NCBI RefSeq assembly: GCF_900172215.1
Contig: NZ_FWFP01000007.1
Coordinates: forward strand, 186,001-250,000
Length of the DNA: 64,000 bases
Reading direction: 5' to 3'
Origin: Ruegeria meonggei
GTDB taxonomy: Bacteria; Pseudomonadota; Alphaproteobacteria; Rhodobacterales; Rhodobacteraceae
Program-made: the position numbers and the translations under genes
Notes under the pieces: generated by a model
The model's input: the letters and a program-made list of their open reading frames with translations, nothing else
The model's database searches: none
Told to the model about the DNA's origin: nothing
In this document: positions 2,099-30,278 of the stretch, in pieces
Layout: every line of letters begins with the position of its first letter
How positions within the stretch are numbered: position 1 is the stretch's first letter

Positions 2099-2779
2099 CT
2101 AGTGATTTTCGTCGATTGAGCGGTCGCGGTCCTGCAACGCTCGGATGCGCATCCGTTGTGCCGCATGAATATGTGCGCGCATCTCTGTCTCGGCCGCTGC
2201 GCCATCGCGGGCCTTCAAAGCCGCCATAATGTGCCGATGCTCCGCCACTGCGGCCTCGGCGCGGTCGCTATCCAGCAATTGCGAGGGCCCCAGGATCAAC
2301 AGCGCCTTTTGCAGAGACAACATGGATTTTGTCAGAAACCGGTTCTTGGCCGCATCCAGCAACGTCGCATGGAAAATCCGGTTGATCCGCGCTGCCTCGG
2401 GGCCGGTGCCTGCCTCTGCCAGCCGGTCGTTCAGCACGTCCAATTCGTCCAATTCGACATCCGAGGCCGCCCGAGCCGCTAACCGGGCCGCAGTGCCCTC
2501 CAAAACGGCGCGCATTTCATACAGCTCCATCACCTCGGCATAGTCCAGACTGCGCACTGTCGCGCCCTGCCGCGGAACATGCGTGACCAGCCCATCCGTC
2601 TCCAATTGCCGGATCGCTTCGCGCACGGGGGTGCGACTAACGCCCAGCCTTTCAGAAAGCTCAATCTCGCGCAGGCGCTCGCCGGGCAGAAGGCTACCAT
2701 CGCGAATCTCATCCAGCAGGCGCTGATAGGCGGAGTTGCCTTGCGGGCCAGGCTGTAACGGGTCGTCTTGGATGGTCAT
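2099..2779 (-). CDS. GntR family regulator with FCD ligand-binding domain
   Basis: Transcription regulator of the FadR/FCD branch of the GntR family, 226 residues. The N-terminal winged helix contains LSERLGVSRTPVREAIRQLE (about residues 39-58), a clear GntR recognition-helix signature, and the C-terminal all-helical FCD domain carries histidines that usually bind a metal and an organic acid. I chose ATG 2779 because the alternative start at 2818 would put the first codons inside the inverted repeat at 2810-2827. It is the first gene of the tcuA-tcuB operon and diverges from the AbrB-like membrane gene. It probably represses the locus and responds to a tricarboxylate or a derivative. Salmonella uses a LysR-type TcuR, so the regulator type differs here. 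Confidence 0.85.
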   Translation of the reverse strand: MTIQDDPLQPGPQGNSAYQRLLDEIRDGSLLPGERLREIELSERLGVSRTPVREAIRQLETDGLVTHVPRQGATVRSLDYAEVMELYEMRAVLEGTAARLAARAASDVELDELDVLNDRLAEAGTGPEAARINRIFHATLLDAAKNRFLTKSMLSLQKALLILGPSQLLDSDRAEAAVAEHRHIMAALKARDGAAAETEMRAHIHAAQRMRIRALQDRDRSIDENH

Positions 2780-18146: not shown

Positions 18147-19997
18147 TCAAGCAGTCGTTGAGGCACTCAGTTTGGATTGACGTTCTACCCTCCCCATCGT
18201 CAGTTTCCGAGCCACATCGCGTGTCTCTTTCGGGTAAGCGCGAACAAACCCAGCGTCACAGGGGATTGTCTCAACTTCTCTTCGATCCAATGCCGGACCT
18301 AGATGGATCGCGGCGATCTCAAACTGCTCTGCCATTTGGCCCAGCGTTACGTAGGATTTTTCAAATATCTGAATGCTCTCTTCAGTGATGTAGAAACGAT
18401 AGTGCTGCGTGTCCGGGTTTCGCACTTTTATCTGCTTCAGGTATCCACCATCCCGCAATAACCGGATTGACCCGACGCTAATTCTCAAGCGGGCCGCCGT
18501 ATCCAGAAGCGACAGATCGCCGGAAAACACGCGCTCCGATTTCTCCAGGATCTCAGCGCAGTCGATAAGAATTCCAGCCAACCCCTCCACGTCCGGATCT
18601 CTCCAAACGCCGGTCAGTCGGTCCGCTGCCCAATCGGCGACAACGCGAGCCAGGGCCACCCCGCTCTGTCGGCTGTACTCCGAGAGGGGCACCCTATGAC
18701 GTGCCCGAGAGGCAATGCGCAGACCTGCAAGTCGGGTCAGCAAGTCCTGTACCGAAGATGTTGGCACGTATCGTAGAGACGTTCCAAAACGATAGGCTTC
18801 CAGAACATTCTGTCGGATCAGCGCCTTCACCTGGACCGGATGGATATTGAGCTGGACCGCGGTGGATTTGATATTCTGCAACCCGGACCAGAAGTCGAGC
18901 ACGGCAGCCAGATCCTCATGGCTGACATCTTTCATGTATGACAGGTCGCGCGCATTTTTGCCACGAAGATGGGCGAGAATACCTCGCACCCGAACCTCGC
19001 CGACCCCATGTAGCTCCCGCGCGCGTTCAAGCGTGATGAGTTTGGGCGCAGAGATTTCCGTACCCAGAACTTTCGCGCCGGTCTGCAGCGGATAGTTTTC
19101 ACGCACAAAATCCTGCACGCAAGCCCTGAGGACTGCTGTCGCCGGGTCCTCTTCAGTTTCCTTAAGCCAGGTGTAGAATTCGCCCATATCTGTCGTGAAA
19201 TAAGACCGCCTGGAGGAAGACCGGCGCCTGGCACGCTCCAACTCAGATTTCAGGGTTTCCGGTCCATTCTTCAAAAACTCGAAACCAGCCGACATGGCGG
19301 TACGCTCCTGGTCGAAGTCCAAATCCGAACGACTAACGCCGCGATCCATGGCAAGTGTCATGCCTAATGTAAGAGCGGCTTGATGAAGATGTGTCAGGTC
19401 CAAAGAGTCCAACCAGTCACCACAAACCCCATTCTTGATACGGCGGCTCAGGTAAGTTTCAAACGAGGATCGCCCGCGCGTTTTCGCGACCTGAGCGGCC
19501 TCCAAGATCAGATCCCTATGACGCGCCACTTGTTCAATCACGTCATAGGTGAGATGTGCATGCGATGCATTGGGAAGCTGGAGTAACGGAACGGCGTGTT
19601 TGGCACAGGTCCTAATCGGCAGCACCAACCACTCGAGAAGTTGAAACGCGCTCTCGGGACCAGAAGCCTCCATAGCCTCCACAATACATCTCGGACAAAT
19701 GCGGATGGTTGCACGCCGTAGCGTACCATTGGTAGCCGATGACAGCCCGACGAGATACCGGCAGGGACCAATCAACCTGGCCGCTCCTTGTTCCAGTGTG
19801 TTAAGCGGCACTCTAGTTAGCAGTGACAACGTCGCCAACTGGTCCAAATGTGCCGAGCAGATATGAGGCCATCGCATTCCAAGATCCGAGCAGAAATCAC
19901 GTGGCGTGCTGGTGTACAGCCGGGCCAAACGAGCAACATAACTTGACGGGGTCTCCCTTTCTGTGAAGGGGAGAATTGGATTCAGCAGGGGTATCAT
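18147..19997 (-). CDS. tniQ: TniQ/TnsD-type target-selection protein
   Basis: 616-residue target-site selector of a Tn7-like transposon. The N-terminal TniQ domain begins MIPLLNPILPFTERETPSSY and carries a zinc-finger pattern: CPRC near residue 100 and a CAKH pair about 35 residues later. The remaining 450 residues are helical with probable helix-turn-helix segments, including TAARLRISVGSIRLLRDGGY. This long, TnsD-like form, unlike short TniQ, usually reads a fixed chromosomal attachment site; the tRNA-Arg at 30.2 kb is one candidate. Its ATG overlaps the tniB/tnsC stop by 4 bp, so it is the fourth gene of a tnsA-tnsB-tnsC-tniQ operon. Confidence 0.85.
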   Translation of the reverse strand: MIPLLNPILPFTERETPSSYVARLARLYTSTPRDFCSDLGMRWPHICSAHLDQLATLSLLTRVPLNTLEQGAARLIGPCRYLVGLSSATNGTLRRATIRICPRCIVEAMEASGPESAFQLLEWLVLPIRTCAKHAVPLLQLPNASHAHLTYDVIEQVARHRDLILEAAQVAKTRGRSSFETYLSRRIKNGVCGDWLDSLDLTHLHQAALTLGMTLAMDRGVSRSDLDFDQERTAMSAGFEFLKNGPETLKSELERARRRSSSRRSYFTTDMGEFYTWLKETEEDPATAVLRACVQDFVRENYPLQTGAKVLGTEISAPKLITLERARELHGVGEVRVRGILAHLRGKNARDLSYMKDVSHEDLAAVLDFWSGLQNIKSTAVQLNIHPVQVKALIRQNVLEAYRFGTSLRYVPTSSVQDLLTRLAGLRIASRARHRVPLSEYSRQSGVALARVVADWAADRLTGVWRDPDVEGLAGILIDCAEILEKSERVFSGDLSLLDTAARLRISVGSIRLLRDGGYLKQIKVRNPDTQHYRFYITEESIQIFEKSYVTLGQMAEQFEIAAIHLGPALDRREVETIPCDAGFVRAYPKETRDVARKLTMGRVERQSKLSASTTA

Positions 19998-20989
19998 GCA
20001 TCTTCTCCATCTTTAGGCTTGTCTCCGTCGTCCAGGAGCTTTCTTGGATTGATGCGCCCGTAGTCCTCGGCGATGAAGACATTCATCCAGGCCTCTGCTC
20101 CATTCCTTTCGCTGTAGATCTCAGCAAAATGCCGAATGCCCAGTTTTGCGTCGAACCCATCTGTAAACAGCGCATGTGAAACCGCGAGGACAACAATCTC
20201 GGCCAAAAGCCCAAACTGATAGTCCGCCGCGTGAATCAACCGCATGGCAAAGGCTTCGTTCTTAACCGAGGTCGCCACATCTATCTGCGCCCGATCAGCG
20301 TATTTTTGAACGATCTTGATGACGGGACCGACATCGCGCAGTGAATGCAATCGACCGATTTCCACCGGGTCAACCCGCCGTGCCAACTGAGCATCCTGGT
20401 TTACAATATCTTTGAGACCCGGCATCCCAGACAGCAGCAGACTCACAGGCCAGACAGAGTTTTCCATCATCGACTTAAGTGTGTTCACGACGGACTGACG
20501 CTCTTTCTCGGTTTGGTATCGAGCCAAATCCTGCGCTTCGTCAAAGCCAAGAAAAAGCGTATGGCGACGTTTGAGTTGTTCCTTGACCTGATCCCAAATA
20601 GCCGGTCCTTGTTTGTTGCCGGCATAGGGATATCCCAGCGCCCGTAGCGTAGCTGCACCAACGAACTTCATCGTAGCCGGGCTTGGCACCTGAAGTCCGA
20701 TATACTCACAGATTTCCTCACCTGGGTCTGTGGCCATCAAACGCCTATATTTGTGAACGAGATGTCTTACCGCTGTGGTCTTGCCACTGCCCGACTGTCC
20801 CACCAGCATAATGCTCCTGGCTTTGAAGACGACACCGTCGGCATCGTCAGCACGCCGCTGCTCAAGGAGACTGCCAAAGCGCGCGTCTAGCTTGTTGAAT
20901 TCCGGACGCGGGATGTGGAGAGTTCTCAAGCTTTGCACGGTTTTACGGATGTCTTTGTCAGACCGGAAGTTTTGAGGGTCCTTACTCAT
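19994..20989 (-). CDS. tniB: TniB/TnsC AAA+ transposition regulator ATPase
   Basis: 331-residue AAA+ ATPase that links target selector to transposase. Walker A GQSGSGKT (residues 64-71) and Walker B LFLGFDE (145-151) are intact, and sensor-type residues follow in SLLLSGMPGL. ATG 20989 lies inside the end of the upstream tniA gene (8-bp overlap), which supports coupling; a longer frame to 21082 has no support. Members of this family form filaments on DNA and recruit the transposase. Length is close to that of TniB of Tn5053-type elements. Confidence 0.87.
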   Translation of the reverse strand: MSKDPQNFRSDKDIRKTVQSLRTLHIPRPEFNKLDARFGSLLEQRRADDADGVVFKARSIMLVGQSGSGKTTAVRHLVHKYRRLMATDPGEEICEYIGLQVPSPATMKFVGAATLRALGYPYAGNKQGPAIWDQVKEQLKRRHTLFLGFDEAQDLARYQTEKERQSVVNTLKSMMENSVWPVSLLLSGMPGLKDIVNQDAQLARRVDPVEIGRLHSLRDVGPVIKIVQKYADRAQIDVATSVKNEAFAMRLIHAADYQFGLLAEIVVLAVSHALFTDGFDAKLGIRHFAEIYSERNGAEAWMNVFIAEDYGRINPRKLLDDGDKPKDGEDA

Positions 20990-23192
20990 CACCCTTCTCC
21001 TCGCCTCGATCTGCGTCTCTGGCCATGCCGTGATCGCCGTCTTCATCCTCCAGTTCATCGCTGAAGAACCACTCGTCTTCATTCACCTCCGGCAGCACAG
21101 GTTCCTCCTCGGGCAGCGGACCGGGAAGGTAGGGAATTTCATCTGACAGGAAACCGCTTTCCGGATCAGGGATTGCCGCCTTTTTGTCAGAGGCAATTTC
21201 CGGATCAGAGCCTAAAGACAGACCCCAAAACGTCTCTTTCTGCGCACGTCTGATCTGATCGCTGGTAAGCTTGATCGGGCCAAGCTGCCGCGCTGCGCAT
21301 TGTTCAGCGTCGATCTCCTTGATCCTGCGAATAGCGCGGTCCACCACACTCTGAGTCAAACTGGCGGCAGCGCGATTGTTTTGACGCAGTTCAAATATTG
21401 ACCGCTCCCAAGAGGCGAAGGATACCCCTTCGAGCCCCTCAAGCTTTGCACCCAGCGTTGACCACCCACTGTCTTTACCGCGCTCCAACCAGACAGAAAT
21501 GTGCCCCATATCTTCGGTATCGATACTGACTTCGACACTCTGCTGGCCGTATTTTTGAAAGTGTTCTGCCAGACGTTTGGAATGATAGTTCACGCCGTTC
21601 ATCAAAACGCCGTGCCGACCAGTCTCACGATTGAATTTCAGCCCCAGGATATGACGAAGCTTGTGCTTGCTCATCGGAGGAGACCAGCCGAACTCAGTGA
21701 CCAGCTTGTCCCACATGTTGTTGGGCGTTGCGTATTCCAAACCCCGATGCTTGCGATTGTGGTAGACATCGACGGTGAAGCGTACCAGCAACTCCAAGAT
21801 ACTCTCGGCAGTATGCACCGCGTATTTTTCCGACGGGTAATCCCCTCTTTGCTGCGGATTGGAGAATGTGCGCCCCGTCAAGTAAGGCATCAACAAAATC
21901 GCTATTGAGCGGAATAAGCGCTCAATAACCCCTCTCAACTTGGGAGCCCCAGCAGGTAGAACAGAGTAGTCGATCGCCAAATCGGAAAGCGCAGCCTTGA
22001 AGTCTGCGTTAACAAAGGCCGGACCGTTGTCGACAACTACATGATAAACATGCCCATGTTGCGACCAGGACGTTTCACATCCAAGCTGGGACGCGAGCAT
22101 GGTCTTGCCTCGCATGGCCATCCAAACGACTGCTTTCGCATCTTCGGCACTTGGTTTGGTCGAGAGTTTGAGACCGAGTATGGAGCGGCTGGCGACGTCA
22201 ATGGCAGCGCAAACCCAGTAGCGACCAAGCTCAAGATCACGCAGGCTCGGATGGGTGATATCTGCCCCTGCGCCCTGCAAGATCGACATGAGATCAATTT
22301 CCCATTCATCCATTTCGACACGAAGCAATGGTGCGTGAAGCTTGATGCCCCCGGCATGGGCGCCCAGCTTGTTCTTGGCATGCGCTACACCGCTGCGCGC
22401 GGCCAGGACTTCAAACCGATCCAACTCACTAATGCGCCGTTCAATCGTGCTCAGGGAACATTCTGGAATAAGATCTTCGCCAGCAAAGCCAAGGGCGGTG
22501 TTCTTTCGTCGCACTTCAGCATTTACGGCATCCAACACCTGCGAAGGGTAGATCTCGTTGGGATGAAGGTAGTTCTCGAGTTCCAACTGAATAATCGCTT
22601 CGGCCTGGGGATGGACACGCTTTCCGTTTTGGCCATTGAAGATCGACTTTTTGATAAAGATCGCCGGATCTCTGGTCTTTTCCCACTCACGGTATTTTTC
22701 CATGATGCTAGTGCGACCGGGCACATAAGAGAGAAAAGTGGGATCAACCCCCTCGCCCTTAATGCTTTTAAGCAGCCCATCGTGGAGCTTCTGCTGTACG
22801 CGTTCCTGCAGCTTCGGCAGAAATTCAGGCCACCGCTTTGATGATCTGTTGAACCACTCTTCGGCTTCACCCTCGCTCATCGATTCACACCAGGCTTCGC
22901 CAAGAAACGCGTTGAACTGGGTTTTGCGAGACAGCCGCGATATCACCGCACGTCCCATCCGCGCATGGCGCGCAGCTTGACGATCGGAGAAATAGCCATA
23001 TTCGATTGAGAAGTGCCCATCTTCTAGCAACCTCGCGAGCTCCGCATGGGAAAACGTCAGCGGTACAGCATCCGCTTGTTTTGCCAGCAGGGTCACCGTG
23101 TCGTCTGTCACCTTTTGAACAAAGTGAAGCTCACCCTTTCCGAGCACCGCATCTTCATGGCTGATGTTGAGCTGAAACTGGATATCTTTCAT
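20982..23192 (-). CDS. tniA: TniA/TnsB-type DDE transposase
   Basis: 736-residue retroviral-integrase-fold transposase with a Mu-type C-terminal domain. The catalytic triad is visible: D295 in VEMDEWEIDL, D388 in YHVVVDNGPAF and E424 in LRGVIERLFR, with 35 residues between the last two (D35E spacing). N-terminal helix-turn-helix segments would bind the element ends. The C-terminus is acidic and proline-rich, expected for the TniB contact region. It overlaps tnsA by 4 bp upstream and tniB by 8 bp downstream. Pairing with TnsA predicts cut-and-paste rather than copy-in transposition. Confidence 0.92.
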   Translation of the reverse strand: MKDIQFQLNISHEDAVLGKGELHFVQKVTDDTVTLLAKQADAVPLTFSHAELARLLEDGHFSIEYGYFSDRQAARHARMGRAVISRLSRKTQFNAFLGEAWCESMSEGEAEEWFNRSSKRWPEFLPKLQERVQQKLHDGLLKSIKGEGVDPTFLSYVPGRTSIMEKYREWEKTRDPAIFIKKSIFNGQNGKRVHPQAEAIIQLELENYLHPNEIYPSQVLDAVNAEVRRKNTALGFAGEDLIPECSLSTIERRISELDRFEVLAARSGVAHAKNKLGAHAGGIKLHAPLLRVEMDEWEIDLMSILQGAGADITHPSLRDLELGRYWVCAAIDVASRSILGLKLSTKPSAEDAKAVVWMAMRGKTMLASQLGCETSWSQHGHVYHVVVDNGPAFVNADFKAALSDLAIDYSVLPAGAPKLRGVIERLFRSIAILLMPYLTGRTFSNPQQRGDYPSEKYAVHTAESILELLVRFTVDVYHNRKHRGLEYATPNNMWDKLVTEFGWSPPMSKHKLRHILGLKFNRETGRHGVLMNGVNYHSKRLAEHFQKYGQQSVEVSIDTEDMGHISVWLERGKDSGWSTLGAKLEGLEGVSFASWERSIFELRQNNRAAASLTQSVVDRAIRRIKEIDAEQCAARQLGPIKLTSDQIRRAQKETFWGLSLGSDPEIASDKKAAIPDPESGFLSDEIPYLPGPLPEEEPVLPEVNEDEWFFSDELEDEDGDHGMARDADRGEEKGDE

Positions 23193-23920
23193 GGCCTGTC
23201 CTTTCCGGGGGCAACAATTGTGTTGATGGAGATGAGTTCACGCGAATTGGCCTTCAGAAGCCTCGCGTAGATGGCTCGGAAAGCCGCCCGGAACCCGCGC
23301 GCGCCAAGGTCCAGAGGTTTTATGAGATCACTGATCGAGAGTTCGTCTGTGAGACCCGAAACAAGCTCAGCAACTAGAAGATCGGCCTCTTCGTCTGGGC
23401 AGCGCCGAAAGAAGTTCAAAAGCTCTGCGTTTTGCACTTCTTTTGGGTGGTGGTTGTGTTCAGTGATGAGGCAGACTTTGTCAGCAAATCCCTTCGGCAG
23501 ATCGCGGCGGATTGCAGCGAGCGTGCTTCTGAAGTTCAGCCTTTCAACCCGTTCAGCGGGTTTGACGGCCATCGCAACCTTGGATCCGTCCCGGTACTCC
23601 GCCAGATAATCAAAGCGATGCGTGCGCTGACGCCCTGAGGCATCAATATAGCTGACGGGACGCGGCTGATCATGCAGGTTCCAAAGGTTTGGATCCGCGA
23701 GTGCGAGTAGGCAGGTTACCCGTTCATGTTGACTCGCTGAAATAAACTGCCGCCAGTACATTTCGGCAGGTGTCATAGCTAAGGTAAAACCGCGCGCAGT
23801 GAACTGTGAGCGCGCAGGAAACATCAGCCCAGCCGTGGTTGGCTCAGGGGGACGATAGAAATCGTCGTTGTCATCTTTAGACATATCTCTTGCCGTGGCT
23901 GCGAGCTCTGCCCGCGCCAT
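23189..23920 (-). CDS. tnsA: TnsA-like endonuclease
   Basis: 243-residue probable 5'-strand nuclease of a Tn7-like element. A PD-(D/E)XK pattern is visible: glutamates at E53/E66 in the first helix, D104 in THRFDYLAEY, and K120 in VAMAVKP. The residue two before the lysine is alanine, where Tn7 TnsA has glutamine, so full activity is not certain. ATG 23920 is preferred because GAGGAG lies 5 nt upstream; the frame extends to a TTG at 23947 without a site. It is the first gene of tnsA-tniA-tniB-tniQ and stands 25 nt after a terminator-like hairpin. Homology is judged from pattern and position, so moderate confidence. Confidence 0.72.
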   Translation of the reverse strand: MARAELAATARDMSKDDNDDFYRPPEPTTAGLMFPARSQFTARGFTLAMTPAEMYWRQFISASQHERVTCLLALADPNLWNLHDQPRPVSYIDASGRQRTHRFDYLAEYRDGSKVAMAVKPAERVERLNFRSTLAAIRRDLPKGFADKVCLITEHNHHPKEVQNAELLNFFRRCPDEEADLLVAELVSGLTDELSISDLIKPLDLGARGFRAAFRAIYARLLKANSRELISINTIVAPGKDRP

Positions 23921-23945
23921 TCGGCTCCTCTTCATTTGTGGAGAC

Positions 23946-23992
23946 AAAAGGCGACCCGCCCGCTGAAACGATCAGCGCGGTTGACGGGTCGC
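23946..23992 (-). terminator. Intrinsic terminator-like hairpin just ahead of tnsA
   Basis: On the minus strand GCGACCCG pairs with CGGGTCGC, with an inner stem CGCTGA / TCAGCG and a five-base loop, followed by CTTTTGTC. It ends about 25 nt before the tnsA start codon, which leaves no room for a separate promoter. Either it is an attenuator or read-through is normal. Confidence 0.6.
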
Positions 23993-24012
23993 AAATTTTG
24001 GGTCATGAATGA

Positions 24013-24041
24013 GGTGCAAACGGGTTCTATTCATTTGCACC
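24013..24041 (-). repeat. Inverted repeat GGTGCAAA-N13-TTTGCACC in the tnsA leader
   Basis: Perfect 8-bp arms (24013-24020 and 24034-24041) around a 13-nt loop, between two other hairpins in the leader upstream of tnsA. It could be an RNA hairpin or a protein-binding palindrome. Confidence 0.55.
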
Positions 24042-24042
24042 A

Positions 24043-24073
24043 AGCCCTTTGAGAGTGCCAGCTCTCGGGGGCT
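24043..24073 (-). repeat. Two-part hairpin in the tnsA leader
   Basis: Outer stem AGCCC / GGGCT and inner stem GAGAG / CTCTC with a short loop, lying 10 nt after the three-codon ORF. Together with the two hairpins closer to tnsA it makes a strongly structured 150-nt leader. Confidence 0.5.
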
Positions 24074-24082
24074 TTGCTATTT

Positions 24083-24094
24083 CTAGAGGCTCAT
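24083..24094 (-). other. Three-codon ORF (Met-Ser-Leu-stop) behind a near-consensus Shine-Dalgarno site
   Basis: ATGAGCCTCTAG follows AAAGGAG with an 8-nt spacer, a better ribosome site than most genes nearby have. Minimal ORFs placed before structured RNA are known in attenuation systems. It could also be the broken start of a lost gene, because the frame closes again two codons later (TAG AAA TAG). Confidence 0.4.
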
Positions 24095-24120
24095 TTGTTG
24101 TTCTCCTTTCTTTGAAGTGG

Positions 24121-24249
24121 CTAGAACAGCACGAAGACAGGTGCATCGAGGACATCAACTAAGGCTTGCTCGATGCGCGAATTCAGTAGTTTGCGTAAAC
24201 TGGCGAACCCACACCCAATAGACTGTTGTCTGGCCTCAGTCTGAAACAT
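24121..24249 (-). CDS. Possible 42-residue leader peptide
   Basis: ATG 24249 to TAG 24121, with AAAGGA about 10 nt upstream. The peptide contains QQSIGCGFASLRKLLNSR and a hydrophobic end (VDVLDAPVFVLF). No homology recognised. It lies between the Ner-like repressor gene and the hairpins ahead of tnsA on the same strand, so it may be a leader peptide of the transposition operon or a small regulator. Support is limited to the ribosome site and position. Confidence 0.4.
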   Translation of the reverse strand: MFQTEARQQSIGCGFASLRKLLNSRIEQALVDVLDAPVFVLF

Positions 24250-24311: not shown

Positions 24312-24587
24312 CTAGGGATTTACGGCGTTCCCGGGGCTTTGCTCCTCGGCCACCTCTGATTGGGCGTAGCGCTCAGGAAACAGCTCCTCAACCGACTGAT
24401 TTAACACAGAAGCCAGGTACTTTTCGATTTTCTCCGAACGGCTTTTCCCAAGCGACACAGAACTGACGGCGCTGGCTCCGACACCGATCCGTTGCGCTAG
24501 GTCCGTGAGCTTCAACCCTCTGATTTCTAATTCACACTTGATCCGCGCGTGCCTTGCTCGGTCGATAGGGATATCGTTGTGTCTCAT
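24312..24587 (-). CDS. Ner/Nlp-like helix-turn-helix regulator
   Basis: 91-residue DNA-binding protein. The segment LTDLAQRIGVGASAVSSVSL (about residues 27-46) forms the helix-turn-helix, and the end of the domain has SVEELFPERY, which matches the SPxEIWPxRY ending of Mu Ner and Nlp proteins. ATG 24587 is used because GAGGT precedes it by 7 nt; the longer frame to 24620 has no site. Ner of phage Mu represses the early transposition operon, so the same role over tnsA-tniQ is a reasonable inference. The first gene of the leftward transcript; diverges from the 172-residue gene. Confidence 0.75.
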   Translation of the reverse strand: MRHNDIPIDRARHARIKCELEIRGLKLTDLAQRIGVGASAVSSVSLGKSRSEKIEKYLASVLNQSVEELFPERYAQSEVAEEQSPGNAVNP

Positions 24588-24764: not shown

Positions 24765-25283
24765 ATGGTTCAGAACGACTACGATACTTTCCGAAAGATA
24801 GACCCGGCGGCAGTTACACGCTGTCATATTCGTCTGGAAAAAAATGGTGATCTCCGTGCGACGGTCTGGTTGAAAGCCAAATCAGGGCTACCTTTCCAGT
24901 TCTCGTCTAGGCATCTCGTTGCAGACTTTCACGCCGTAGAAATGCTCAAGGATTTGCGTGCACGGTACTATTGTTCTCGCAAGTCTCTCTGGAGGCTGCT
25001 TGATCAACTGGGTTTGGATCCGTGGGAGCGCGCCATCAAGGACTACAAATCTGATATACCTTTGGCGCAGGTAGCAAAACGTCATGGGTTGAAAAAAACG
25101 ACACTTTCCAACGGCCTTAAGCATCGCGAAGTTCCAATTCGCATTGGAAGGCCTCCTATTCAATTCGATAGCATCGAAGTTCAAAAAGCGCTTCAAGACT
25201 GCCCTTCAGTCAAAGAACTGAGCAGAAGGTTAGGGTCTTCTTGGGACAAAGCCAAAGAGCAGTGGAAATCTTTTGAAGGATAG
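24765..25283 (+). CDS. HTH-containing protein of unknown function
   Basis: 172 residues, no family recognised. Residues about 90-125 read as a helix-turn-helix (LAQVAKRHGLKKTTLSNGLK), and a second candidate lies near the C-terminus (CPSVKELSRRLGSSWDKAKEQW). The N-terminal half has beta-strand-like segments (RCHIRLEKNGDLRATVWLKA). It diverges from the Ner-like gene and is the only rightward gene in the island, so it could be an activator, a target-selection partner or cargo. Its 3' end overlaps the 3' end of the low-confidence 25210-25536 frame. Confidence 0.65.
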   Translation: MVQNDYDTFRKIDPAAVTRCHIRLEKNGDLRATVWLKAKSGLPFQFSSRHLVADFHAVEMLKDLRARYYCSRKSLWRLLDQLGLDPWERAIKDYKSDIPLAQVAKRHGLKKTTLSNGLKHREVPIRIGRPPIQFDSIEVQKALQDCPSVKELSRRLGSSWDKAKEQWKSFEG

Positions 25284-25540: not shown

Positions 25541-28500
25541 TCAATAGATTTCGCTCTCCAAAGAGCGGTTCACACCGTCCAGCATTGTAGCTGCCCAGTC
25601 TCCGAGGACCGCATCACTACTCCAAGAAGCAAGCGGCTCTGTGAAGATCAGTAGATGTGGTTTCCGCGAGCCGCTCCAAGAGCTGGGATAAATGCGCTGG
25701 CGCAAAGCATCACGGAACCGCTTTCTGTCGCCATACAGGTTGGCGAGTTTCTGGAGCGCGGGGTGCCAGTTCCATTTGCCGCTCTTCTGTTCGAGTATCG
25801 GGAAGAAGGTAAGGAGGAATGCAATGCGACCATCCGGATCGACCGCAACCCATTCAAGCATCAGTTCGATCGGGATATCGAATAGGGCTCCAGCGCCGAC
25901 GCGCGAGAGGTCACTTGCGAAGGGCTTGGTAGCGGAAGTGATGGTGTTCATCCGATCACGTTCGACCCGTGTTGCGATCTCGTAAAAGCTTGCGAGTACA
26001 GGCCAGACTGCAGCCGGAGCGCGTAGAACTATAGTGTCGAGGGCACCGCGTAGCACATCCGGAGGACCGCGGCGTCTCGATCCTGAGGTTCGGCATGCAA
26101 ACACTAGCTGATCGGCAAACCTACGAGCGAAGGTGTCGTCGATTCCGTTAGAGGCATCGACCAAACGGAGTAACCGACCGTAGGAATGATCAGCCATGGT
26201 AGTATTGCCATCTACTTCTTCGGCGATGGATGGTGAAAGGATCGTGAACTTTACCAGATCGACGATCTCGGGGGGAAGAATCTTCTGGCCGTGTGTATAC
26301 ATGGACAAGATCTCGAGTGCAGCCCATGCTCCTCCGTCAGAGCCACGCTCAACGAGCGCCTCGATAAACGTTGACAGAGCAGCGTGACCGACTTCCTCGA
26401 GACGACGTCCATAGGAAACCGAGACACTCTGAGCCGGCGCCACTCTGCCCTCGCGAACGTCGTTCGCGAAGTTGTTGAGGCGTTCATCAGTGACGCGGAG
26501 CGAAGTCATAATATACATCGGATTGGCAGTGAGGACACTCGATGTCTTTGCAATGGCTTCAAGCTTACCGACGCCGTCTGGTTTATCTTGAAGGTGGTAA
26601 TCGAGAGCCGATAAGAGGGAAGCGACAAAGTTGACGCCTTCCCGTGTGCCGCTCTCATCTAAGGCAGTGACGGCTTGCTCGAACGTATCCAAAGGGTCCC
26701 GCAATTCCGGGGCCAAGGCGTTCGCAAAGGCCTGTGGCGCATTCATCTCTTCGATCGCCATGACGTGGATGGCGCGGGAAAGCTGCTTCGGATTTCTAGC
26801 GATCATATGCGCAAGTTCTTGCACGCGACGCGCCGAATATTCGTAGTCGGGCTGGTCTTGGTCCTGAGCGTAGCGTTTCGCTGGATCGTGCAGGTCCGCC
26901 ATCCAGAAGCGGCTATAAAGACGGACCAGATCTACCGGGTCGGTCGGTAGGGTCGCGTCGAACAGCCTTCGCACAGCGAGCGAGAAGTCATTCGGCTCTT
27001 CGGGTCGATCGAAATAGAGCCAATCACCGATCCCGTGAGTGGCGTCGAACCAATGACCAGAGTAGGCAACCACTTCTTTGACAAATATCTCGAGGGTGGG
27101 CAAAAGTTCGGGCGAGAGGAGATTGCGGATGTCGCCTGCGACATGCTCCTCGACTACCCGGCGCAGTTTGATGTCCTTGCGCCAAAGTTCGAGCAGGCGC
27201 TGGAGAGCCCAATCGAAATAGGCGTTGATAGTGCCGTGATCGGCAGGCACCCATTCCGGGTGATAGGCTTCGGCGCCGATCTGCTCGAACTGTTCTGATC
27301 GAGAGATACGGGTCTGGATCATCGCCCCGAGCGCTTCGACACCAACGCGACGGATACGCGGATCGTCTTCGTCGAGGGCCTGTTCCAGGGCAACACGTCG
27401 GAGGCGATCATCGGCCTGCGAGCCTGTGAGCGCGACCTGGAAGAGCTGGCGTAACAGCTCCAAGATCGGCTGTGAGCCCTCGAGAGGGGCGACGGCCGCG
27501 AGCCGCAGGACCATCTGCACGGCGGGGCCGAAGCTTTTCTGGCGCGAGGCGAGGAGACGCAGCGCGTCAACGAGCTCTTCAGTGACGGAAATGGCTTCGA
27601 CATCGGAAAGCGATACATGCGCGATCGCCCGGTATAGGGATGTTCCTGTGCGATCGGGTTCGACATGAACGAAGGCAGTGAGATAGGGCGCGACGTCGGG
27701 TCGGACGATGTTCGCGTCAGCGAACGAGGTGCGTAATAGCGTATGGATGGCCTCGCTCAGCGTGCGGGACCGCGCGAGGAAGCGCCAGCGTGCGAGCATG
27801 GCGTCTCGGTGCTGACACGGCGCACTGTCCAGAAACGCTACCAGTGTTGAGGGGCGCAGATAATCAAGGCGACGCAGCGCGAGGAAGTTAGCAATCGGAC
27901 GGGGCTGTACGGTCATTGCGCTATGATTGCGTTCGACCAGATGCTGCCGGGTGGCAATGACGAGATTCTCGTACATCAGTTCACCCTTCATATGAACGAG
28001 CATCTCGGCGAGGTTATCGAAGGCGGCTGGATTCTCATCGGGCGAAAGGTTGTCGAACAATGAGAGGCATTCGAGCGCCCGCACAGTTTCTCGGTCAGCG
28101 CCGACCGCATCCATAATCTGCTGCGCAACATCGTCGACCGACTTTAGGATCGCTCTCTTCTCGTAGCTCTCGGTAGCGAACACAGCGATGCGGGGAAATC
28201 CGTCGCAAAGGTCGGCGATATAGTCGAGTTCATCGGCCTTGGCCTTGGTGAGCTTGGTCTTAAGGATGCCCCTTATCGTCGAGCGATCGGCCTTGGTGGG
28301 CCGAACCATGACGCAATGATCATCATGTTCGAGCCCCTCGGTGCCGATGGTGATGATGCGAAGCTGGCTACCTTCAGTAAGAGCGAGCGCGTTTAGCTCG
28401 CGAGCTTTGTCGAGCGGGCATCCGTCCACGACAAGCACTGCCGCCGAGCCCTCCTTCACGATCTGGTTCGCGACGTCCCATAGGCGATCTCCAACCTGGC

Positions 28501-29353
28501 TGGACTCGCAGAAAATGAAGTTGGCGGCAGCGAGTCCCCTGAGTAGACCAGTGCCCGTGCTAAGCGCTTGATACAGTGCGCGGGTCTTGCCGATTCCTGA
28601 GGCACCCCAGATGCGAACGGAAGCTCCAGACTCTTCCAATTCGACGAAGAGGCGCTCGGCAAGTTGAGAAAACTCGATCGCATCGGCTTCATACGGGCCG
28701 AGCAAGAATTTGCGGTCAGGGCTCTCAACGAACGTTGGCGCGGTGATGTCCGCGCGTTTGCCCCAATGATCGAGGGTAGAGAAGCCGGCAAGGTCGATCG
28801 CAGCGTGCCGCTGCTTGATCCAGACAGCAACACCGGGGTGCGCGCTGGCCCACGCGGCGAGCTTATTTCCCTCGTATACATCGACCGTGGCGAGATTGGT
28901 GGGATCACCACCGGCGGTCGCAATGCCATTCTTGATCGCTCTGACGCGATCTTCCGGTTTATTACCGACGAGCGCCGTCGCAGTGATGCCGATATAGCTG
29001 CCGCCGCGAGCGAGAACTTCGCGCACAGCGTCATTCAGAATCTTGGCCGCGACTCTCTTCTTTTGGGTGGGCTTGGTCCAAACCTCTTTTTCCCACTGAG
29101 CGTCGCCCGCGTCCTTCGCCTTGCATTGAAAGATGATGTCGCAGCTTGGGAAAAAATCTGTTGATGCTTCGCCACCGGCCCAGACAATTCTCGCGTCCTG
29201 ACCTCCATCGGCGACTGTGATTTGGAGCGGAACATCGACCCCTCGCAGTGGAACGCCAGCATTGCGGGCTTCGGCGTAAAGAAGACGGCGCAACAACTCG
29301 ACGAGCTCGTCTCCAGTGAAATCTTTGATTTCGTTAGGATGGACTGTAAACAT
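25541..29353 (-). CDS. Mrr-like nuclease / STAND-type P-loop NTPase, probable antiviral defence protein
   Basis: 1270 residues in three parts. Residues about 1-180 look like a Mrr/PD-(D/E)XK nuclease: ADGGQDARIVW (D53) and DIIFQCKAKD (Q76-x-K78) make the D...QxK active-site pattern, with E28 as a possible fourth ligand. Residues about 215-470 hold a P-loop ATPase with Walker A GASGIGKT (250-257) and Walker B AVLVVDG (305-311). The remaining 800 residues are helical repeat-like, without strong domain matches by eye. This effector-NTPase-sensor order is that of antiviral STAND (Avs) proteins, in which the C-terminus recognises a phage protein and triggers the nuclease. The location inside a transposon island supports a defence role. 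Exact Avs type not assigned. Confidence 0.72.
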   Translation of the reverse strand: MFTVHPNEIKDFTGDELVELLRRLLYAEARNAGVPLRGVDVPLQITVADGGQDARIVWAGGEASTDFFPSCDIIFQCKAKDAGDAQWEKEVWTKPTQKKRVAAKILNDAVREVLARGGSYIGITATALVGNKPEDRVRAIKNGIATAGGDPTNLATVDVYEGNKLAAWASAHPGVAVWIKQRHAAIDLAGFSTLDHWGKRADITAPTFVESPDRKFLLGPYEADAIEFSQLAERLFVELEESGASVRIWGASGIGKTRALYQALSTGTGLLRGLAAANFIFCESSQVGDRLWDVANQIVKEGSAAVLVVDGCPLDKARELNALALTEGSQLRIITIGTEGLEHDDHCVMVRPTKADRSTIRGILKTKLTKAKADELDYIADLCDGFPRIAVFATESYEKRAILKSVDDVAQQIMDAVGADRETVRALECLSLFDNLSPDENPAAFDNLAEMLVHMKGELMYENLVIATRQHLVERNHSAMTVQPRPIANFLALRRLDYLRPSTLVAFLDSAPCQHRDAMLARWRFLARSRTLSEAIHTLLRTSFADANIVRPDVAPYLTAFVHVEPDRTGTSLYRAIAHVSLSDVEAISVTEELVDALRLLASRQKSFGPAVQMVLRLAAVAPLEGSQPILELLRQLFQVALTGSQADDRLRRVALEQALDEDDPRIRRVGVEALGAMIQTRISRSEQFEQIGAEAYHPEWVPADHGTINAYFDWALQRLLELWRKDIKLRRVVEEHVAGDIRNLLSPELLPTLEIFVKEVVAYSGHWFDATHGIGDWLYFDRPEEPNDFSLAVRRLFDATLPTDPVDLVRLYSRFWMADLHDPAKRYAQDQDQPDYEYSARRVQELAHMIARNPKQLSRAIHVMAIEEMNAPQAFANALAPELRDPLDTFEQAVTALDESGTREGVNFVASLLSALDYHLQDKPDGVGKLEAIAKTSSVLTANPMYIMTSLRVTDERLNNFANDVREGRVAPAQSVSVSYGRRLEEVGHAALSTFIEALVERGSDGGAWAALEILSMYTHGQKILPPEIVDLVKFTILSPSIAEEVDGNTTMADHSYGRLLRLVDASNGIDDTFARRFADQLVFACRTSGSRRRGPPDVLRGALDTIVLRAPAAVWPVLASFYEIATRVERDRMNTITSATKPFASDLSRVGAGALFDIPIELMLEWVAVDPDGRIAFLLTFFPILEQKSGKWNWHPALQKLANLYGDRKRFRDALRQRIYPSSWSGSRKPHLLIFTEPLASWSSDAVLGDWAATMLDGVNRSLESEIY

Positions 29354-30201: not shown

Positions 30202-30278
30202 TGGCGGACCGAGGAGGATTCGAACCCCCGACCCCTTGATTCGTAGTCAAGTACTCTATCCAGCTGAGCTATCGGTCC
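30202..30278 (-). tRNA. tRNA-Arg (anticodon ACG)
   Basis: 77-nt cloverleaf on the minus strand. Acceptor GGACCGA pairs with TCGGTCC, followed by discriminator G and encoded CCA (30204-30202). The D-arm has AGCTGGATA, the anticodon stem CTTGA/TCAAG encloses loop CTACGAA (anticodon ACG, read as ICG), and the T-arm loop is TTCGAAT. The 3' end faces the island, the usual side for integration of mobile elements. Confidence 0.95.

Follow-up and report, generated by a model that had tools for sequence, protein, structure and literature searches.

A predicted cis-antisense RNA in the leader of a Tn7-like transposition operon of Ruegeria meonggei and its relatives

The leader that precedes the Tn7-like transposition operon of Ruegeria meonggei probably encodes, on the opposite strand, a predicted cis-antisense RNA that is about 70 nt long (approximately 24013-24086 on the plus strand) and would repress the operon. 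Positions are those of the window, the whole stretch of 64,000 nucleotides that was analysed. In the aligned sequences a promoter-like pair of elements, hairpins and a T-tract are conserved together at the head of the operon, and the antisense candidate lies opposite the leader of its putative target mRNA, at an operon head in 54 of 55 loci and at a contig end in one. Judged by base pairs and predicted folds, hairpin P1 is built for the antisense strand and hairpins P3 and P4 for the sense strand. In other Rhodobacterales, transposons related to this one are preceded by the same arrangement, which suggests that an RNA acts as a brake on when they transpose.

The operon and its leader in the window

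The open reading frames and Pfam domains of the window, which belongs to a genome of 4.54 Mb, give the order Ner-like HTH gene, leader, tnsA, tnsB, tnsC and tniQ on the minus strand (Table 1). By its protein domains the operon is Tn7-like, with a TnsA nuclease, a TnsB DDE transposase, a TnsC AAA+ protein and TniQ found together, TnsA being weak by Pfam. Of three relatives scanned, L007 and L040 have the TnsA domain above the cut-off, and the third, L016, scored 26.3 against 26.5; residues Q85, D104 and K120 are invariant in an alignment of 14 TnsA proteins (A1). The start of tnsA is probably the ATG at 23884-23882 and not the one upstream at 23920, because the upstream ATG is ACG in L117 and a hairpin parts the Shine-Dalgarno site (SD) from the shared downstream ATG.

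Table 1. Features of the operon and its leader, with the IS66-associated leader matches.
Feature	Position	Strand	Basis
tniQ	18147..19997	-	TniQ domain
tnsC	19994..21082	-	TniB / AAA_22
tnsB	20982..23192	-	rve + Mu-transpos_C
tnsA	23189..23884	-	likely start ATG 23884-23882; PF08722 weak, E 0.0056, below cut-off
P4 hairpin, between tnsA SD and likely start	23892..23925	-	SD AGAGGAG 23925-23931
P3 hairpin, sense leader, then CCTTTTGTC	23951..23992	-	covariation; G.U 40 vs A.C 0
-35 element TTGACG, predicted antisense promoter	23981..23986	+	TTGAC in 55/55 loci >=39 bits
-10-like element CATGAA, after 17-nt spacer	24004..24009	+	second base A invariant, 55/55
P2', first hairpin of predicted antisense RNA	24013..24041	+	predicted start near G 24016; fold
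P1', second hairpin, predicted terminator hairpin	24042..24074	+	terminator-like 24046-24071 (+) in terminator scan
T-rich tail TGCTATTTCTAG, predicted antisense 3' end region, opposite mini-ORF stop	24075..24086	+	T counts
Mini-ORF ATG AGC CTC TAG (M S L stop)	24083..24094	-	SD AGGAG at 24103-24107
42-codon ORF, putative decayed C-terminal part of second Ner-like HTH gene	24121..24249	-	protein match, relatives
Ner-like HTH gene, upstream of leader	24312..24587	-	PF13693
IS66-associated leader matches	L151 oriented 2563-2675; L155 oriented 2479-2601		HTH + small ORF + antisense-type leader

A single search for exact inverted 14-mers between the two flanks gave one match and no recognisable element ends. 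Other genes lie nearby. A divergent gene of 172 aa (24765-25283, plus strand), with similarity to HTH_Tnp_ISL3 below the cut-off, faces the HTH gene in an arrangement as in a repressor/Ner control region. A protein of 1270 aa encoded near the transposition genes (25541-29353, minus strand) matches PADLOC PD-Lambda-4_A (1.7e-49), one of a set of models for proteins with a known or candidate role in anti-phage defence. Slightly past this gene there is a tRNA-Arg (acg) at 30202-30278 (minus strand), a possible insertion landmark. A phage origin of the element was considered and is unsupported, TnsA having no match in phage records nor, with one peptide pattern, in IMG/VR; one exact leader pattern also gave nothing in IMG/VR.

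All the leader features described in the earlier note are present on the minus strand: the 42-codon ORF, the three-codon ORF (ATG AGC CTC TAG at 24094-24083, behind AGGAG), two hairpins and, after them, the terminator-like hairpin, to which CCTTTTGTC is attached. The 42-codon ORF, although present, does not look like a leader gene; it is rather, by protein comparison, an HTH-gene remnant. Over its last 25 residues it aligns with the C-terminal portion of a Ner-like HTH protein (12/25 identical, E 6e-6) whose gene occupies the same place in a related element. In a Shimia relative (L222) an intact HTH reading frame reaches the mini-ORF, and L117, L210 and L201 represent other stages of decay of that gene.

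The stretch 23946-24110 folds at -59.5 kcal/mol against a shuffle mean of -41.6 kcal/mol (z -4.8), with none of 200 shuffles as low. An Rfam search of the leader gave nothing at the gathering score and three matches far below it (E 1.2-5).

Conservation and distribution of the leader

Relatives of TnsA were found in 63 of 394 genomes of the same family, and the plan of the leader is common to many of the closer ones despite widely differing sequences. In a hand alignment of 11 leaders (A7), whose stems were hand-picked and which favours the structure, 93.9% of the cells are paired and 20 of 25 pairs show two-sided change; the covariation score is 0.84 against 0.20 when shuffled and 0.08-0.18 when slid. 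An alignment of 87 rows gave 90.8% of cells pairing against 59.7% in shuffles, percentages that lean towards the structure since the alignments (A8/A9) were fitted to that of the model. Its covariation score was 0.53 against 0.15 shuffled and at most 0.11 slid, and the number of pairs changed on both sides was nearly as high in shuffles (23.2/25). Covariation in related leaders, a check named in the earlier note, is present in both alignments, and the view that a conserved, structured control leader precedes the operon is borne out by the comparison.

A first covariance model gave 21 matches over 83 sources at E <=5, 20 of them at the expected place; the one new place was a locus whose first gene is tniQ (L094). 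With a second model, matches at E <=1, often weak ones, were found in at least 37 of 394 family genomes; at E <=0.05 at least 41 of 390 genomes of the order had a match, 35 of these below 1e-5. The counts are lower bounds, as at most eight candidates per genome were scored under strict filters. In a sample of the class, three of 385 genomes had a match at E <=0.05, namely the window's own and two weak ones (21-22.5 bits).

From the 87 model matches 15 were removed (wrong strand or secondary, all below 20 bits) and 72 retained; the 55 of at least 39 bits are the loci counted here, while the pair counts of the covariation test take in all 87. An ORF matching tnsA lies directly downstream in 52 of the 55, and tniQ followed by tnsA in two (L094 and L152); in L212 the contig ends 333 bases past the element. 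The window itself and the loci retrieved by way of TnsA make up 21 of the 55, so a fair count comes from the other 34, which the RNA model alone detected: 32 stand before tnsA, one before tniQ-tnsA (L152) and one at a contig end. Upstream of the leader an HTH gene was detected in 49 of the 55. The 55 leaders are related to each other; grouping at 60% identity gives 16 groups, of which 12 have the small ORF and eight have P4.

Carriers include records of Ruegeria, Shimia, Thioclava, Sulfitobacter, Loktanella and Paracoccus, as well as plasmids of Tritonibacter and Phaeobacter; Tritonibacter mobilis A3R06, Phaeobacter inhibens M624, Ruegeria spongiae and Shimia sp. R10_1 are among them. Some genomes hold several copies of the element, three in G475 and four in G589 (L183-L189). 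There was no convincing leader match at the Hyphomicrobiales TnsA loci L234, L235, L236, L238 and L239 (L238 reached 11.8 bits, on the wrong strand), and none at the Rhodobacterales loci L231, L240 and L241. Four loci of another TnsA subfamily (L070, L071, L076 and L113) share a leader of different sequence, about GCAGCCTGCGGGCAGCGTCGGAG...CCGGCGAGCGATA, and may represent a second, unrelated element.

Promoter, hairpins and terminator on the antisense strand

On the strand antisense to tnsA, TTGAC is present in all 55 loci and is followed, with exactly 19 nt between, by an A that is likewise invariant. The hexamer around this A is mostly [GC]A[TA]GAA, and the predicted start base, the seventh past the -10 element, is G in 46 of 55. 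The 17-nt spacers exist in 42 distinct versions among the 55 loci, and their conservation is weaker than that of the TTGAC / A pair. Such a pattern would be expected of a promoter that has a spacer of 17 nt and the key base -11A. The invariance of TTGAC is partly a matter of selection, because GTCAA, the same string on the sense strand, guided the first placement of leaders by eye and is carried by the models; the A and its spacing were not selected on, and the matching T was present at 89 of 403 other occurrences of GTCAA in the same loci. The pair was also seen in 15 of the 17 weaker matches (below 39 bits); these are not independent support, because seven of them (L153, L154, L156-L158, L198 and L199) lie in unrelated contexts and the model favours that string.

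A strict sigma-70 scan found no promoter on either strand between 23000 and 25000 of the window. The predicted antisense -10 element bears little resemblance to TATAAT and is a poor match to the enterobacterial consensus. In start-site maps the commonest values are a 17-bp spacer and 6 bp from the -10 element to the start, and the -7T is missing from many alphaproteobacterial promoters, being absent in more than 60% of those of Rhodobacter sphaeroides (extract of PMC8407463).

The fixed spacing of the pair, together with the Ner-like HTH gene detected upstream in 49 of 55 loci, would also suit a bipartite DNA site for that regulator or another protein, the hairpins being secondary. Such a site leaves unexplained the compensatory changes in the hairpins, the strand-specific wobble pairs and the T-tract, and we regard it as very improbable.

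The hairpins downstream of the predicted promoter differ in the strand they prefer. The non-Watson-Crick pairs of P1 are, read on the sense strand, 58 A.C and two G.U, and therefore G.U on the antisense strand. P1 alone has the lower fold energy as antisense in 55 of 55 loci, and for P1 and P2 together the antisense fold is also lower, by 8.6 kcal/mol on average. P2 is strand-neutral (22 G.U and 31 A.C on the sense strand), while P3 has 40 G.U and no A.C on the sense strand and folds lower there in 39 loci, against four in which the antisense fold is lower. An antisense gene therefore does not make up the whole of the conserved unit, of which P3 and P4 are sense-strand features. As the strand-specific wobble pairs decided the case, hairpin-rich leaders need to be read on both strands.

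After P1' there are at least 5 T in 8 in 51 of 55 loci and at least 6 in 38, against 738 of 11,000 random places (6.7%) and 1.8%, respectively. The T-tract is missing in four loci (L041, L191, L054 and L055). The antisense RNA predicted for the window consists of two hairpins and a loose tail (-33 kcal/mol, z -5.0), and the predicted length over the 55 loci has a median of 73 nt (range 54-92). From the sequence, a discrete structured RNA with its own putative terminator is thereby predicted on the antisense side. The motif YUNR was seen in sense loop 2 in 34 of 55 loci, where shuffling gave a mean of 21.6 and a maximum of 34; sense loop 1 has it in 23 loci (shuffled mean 7.8, maximum 15) and the antisense loops in 19 and 21 of 55. 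It is not part of the argument.

These counts bear on one mechanism proposed in the earlier note, in which transcription would end at hairpin P3 as an intrinsic terminator and antitermination would switch the operon on. P3 is indeed followed by CCTTTTGTC in the window, and attenuation induced by antisense RNA has a precedent in plasmids pT181 and pIP501 (extract of PMC5415839). At least 5 T in 8 follow P3 in 12 of 55 loci and at least 6 in six; because the window is among these six, termination at P3 is possible for its element. In the other 43 loci there are fewer than 5 T in 8, despite the wider stretch that was scanned than for the antisense count, yet the hairpin is kept. As a general mechanism antitermination before tnsA is unsupported, and we give it hardly any credence; the terminator that is conserved is, from the T counts, P1 on the plus strand.

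Mini-ORF, ribosome site and proposed mechanism

On the sense strand 38 of 55 loci have, behind an SD, an ORF of two to four codons that ends 5-42 nt before P1; it frequently reads M T, M I or M S P followed by a stop. These 38 are a subset of 40 loci with an ORF of at most eight codons, L094 and L216 having been omitted for their longer ORFs. The 17 loci in which it is absent are L094, L152, L212, L218 and a clade of 13 in which the HTH frame itself terminates at that place.

Of 51 loci, 43 have the arrangement SD-hairpin-AUG at tnsA, compared with 40 of 253 control ORFs taken from this set of loci, the hairpin bridging about 20-60 nt; together with the lack of a good linear SD it was found in 24 of 51 against 24 of 253. 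The 51 are those tested out of 52, L042 having no in-frame ATG candidate; a count of 45 of 52 was obtained with looser limits that include the doubtful cases L054, L215 and L189. P4 is absent in eight of the 51. The fold of P4 is lower on the sense strand in 30 of 41 loci and on the antisense strand in eight, and compensatory changes are few (4/12 pairs in the group of the window, and 1/14, 0/23 and 0/17 in three others). In the group of L066 the stem of P4 also incorporates bases of the SD. The arrangement points to a hairpin-bridged ribosome site at tnsA, of the type of T4 genes 25 and 38, and with the mini-ORF it suggests that translation is the target.

These features could also be read as a translational attenuator of the sense mRNA acting with no antisense RNA. 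Ribosomes on the mini-ORF would refold P1, P2, the linker and P3, P4 would bridge the tnsA SD to the start, and the pyrimidine-rich linker CACCUCAUUCAUGACC would mask an SD; in some single folds this linker does pair with the region of the tnsA SD, and a possible switch in which it would pair with either of two SDs was considered on such folds. The mini-ORF behind its SD (also in L039 and L041, without a detected HTH gene), the hairpin-bridged SD and the preference of P3 and P4 for the sense strand would all be accounted for. There are precedents as well, since two-codon ORFs alter the expression of the next gene in axe-txe (extract of PMC8708949) and hairpin-bridged SDs function in T4 genes 38 and 25 (extract of PMC3014915). 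What it leaves unexplained is the lower antisense fold of P1 in every locus, the antisense T-tract and the fixed TTGAC / A pair. The preference of P1 for the antisense strand in 55 of 55 loci is the reason why a sense-only leader, riboswitch-like or purely translational, was dropped as the main reading, and we consider such a leader unlikely. The earlier note's suggestion of translational attenuation may still apply, the mini-ORF and the SD-hairpin-AUG arrangement being conserved; the note overlooked the antisense anatomy of the opposite strand.

The predicted antisense RNA is the most likely reading. It would start inside the leader, at the TTGAC / [GC]A[TA]GAA promoter with its 17-nt spacer, and end at an intrinsic terminator opposite the stop codon of the mini-ORF. 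Its position would make it complementary, over its full length, to an mRNA leading from the Ner-like HTH gene into tnsABC-tniQ. Once transcribed it would pair with about 70 nt of the leader, and the pairing would lower the expression of the first transposition gene, most likely through a block of translation acting on the mini-ORF and the hairpin-bridged SD. Both this block and the alternative, in which the head of the operon would be exposed to RNase III, are proposed by analogy with CopA and IS10 RNA-OUT. The brake would tighten with copy number, because more copies of the element would make more antisense RNA.

Two further matches of the model, L151 (31.0 bits) and L155 (23.6 bits), each have a related HTH gene on one side and an IS66-family transposase on the other (PF03050, 9e-73 and 3e-90, respectively). 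Their small ORFs are M S stop in L151 and M T stop in L155; TTGAT replaces TTGAC in L155, and the T-tracts after P1' are weak by eye in both. The HTH protein of L155 had no match in plasmids; among 41 genomes, its matches were its own locus and, at 34% identity, three known tnsA loci. From these two loci, which are all the evidence for an IS66 cassette, it can tentatively be proposed, with more doubt than confidence, that a portable brake, composed of a Ner-like HTH gene, a minigene of two to four codons and an antisense RNA, serves unrelated transposases, both Tn7-like operons that start with tnsA or tniQ and the IS66-type transposases of L151 and L155, which would count copies as plasmid antisense RNAs do.

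Comparison with known systems

IS10 RNA-OUT is a cis-antisense RNA to the transposase mRNA. In IS200, art200 pairs with the tnpA mRNA and promotes its decay (extract of PMC12594629). As in these elements, the RNA predicted here lies within the element and opposite the transposase transcript; unlike them, it comes with a mini-ORF, and its promoter, two hairpins and terminator separate an HTH gene from a Tn7-like operon. For a relation in sequence, the RNAs of IS10 and IS200 were compared through the Rfam search, which gave no match at the gathering score.

An antisense RNA directed against a leader is also known from the IncFII-like copy control of plasmid R1, in which CopA blocks translation of the leader protein, and hence synthesis of Rep, through translational coupling (extract of PMC5415839). 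Unlike CopA/CopT, the small ORF here has two to four codons and is not a peptide gene, and the putative target is a transposition operon. In this it resembles the minigenes mg2 of axe-txe and that of LEE1 ler, an ATG, a codon and a stop behind an SD in the leader of the regulated gene (extract of PMC8708949). The minigene mg2 is ATG ACT TAA (M T stop), as are the encoded products of several mini-ORFs found here, and it ends 15 nt before its gene, whereas three hairpins intervene in the present leaders (same extract). In T4 genes 25 and 38 the effective distance from SD to AUG is reduced by an intervening hairpin (extract of PMC3014915); here, unlike in T4, the arrangement stands at a transposon operon.

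CAST elements likewise carry a small DNA-binding regulator beside the Tn7-like unit (the Xre proteins RtaC/RtbC, and CvkR); these are protein repressors, and antisense RNA or leader control is not mentioned in the extracts concerned (PMC11406308; PMC9938897). Among the matches listed, little is described on the restraint of the transposase in Tn7-like elements without CRISPR, the regulators there being the CAST repressors. In Ruegeria pomeroyi one sRNA lies opposite a truncated transposase (extract of PMC4809877). The matches listed in open-licence PubMed Central, including the extracts of PMC10293859 and PMC11406308, contained no antisense or leader RNA control of a Tn7-like element.

If the predicted RNA is real, a layer of RNA control is added before the tns operon, and the activity of the element could be coupled to its copy number. 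This is directly testable, because the promoter, hairpins and terminator are pinned to single bases. Antisense control of transposases, two-codon minigenes and hairpin-bridged ribosome sites are each known separately; what appears new, there being none among the matches listed in open-licence PubMed Central, is their combination at the head of a Tn7-like operon.
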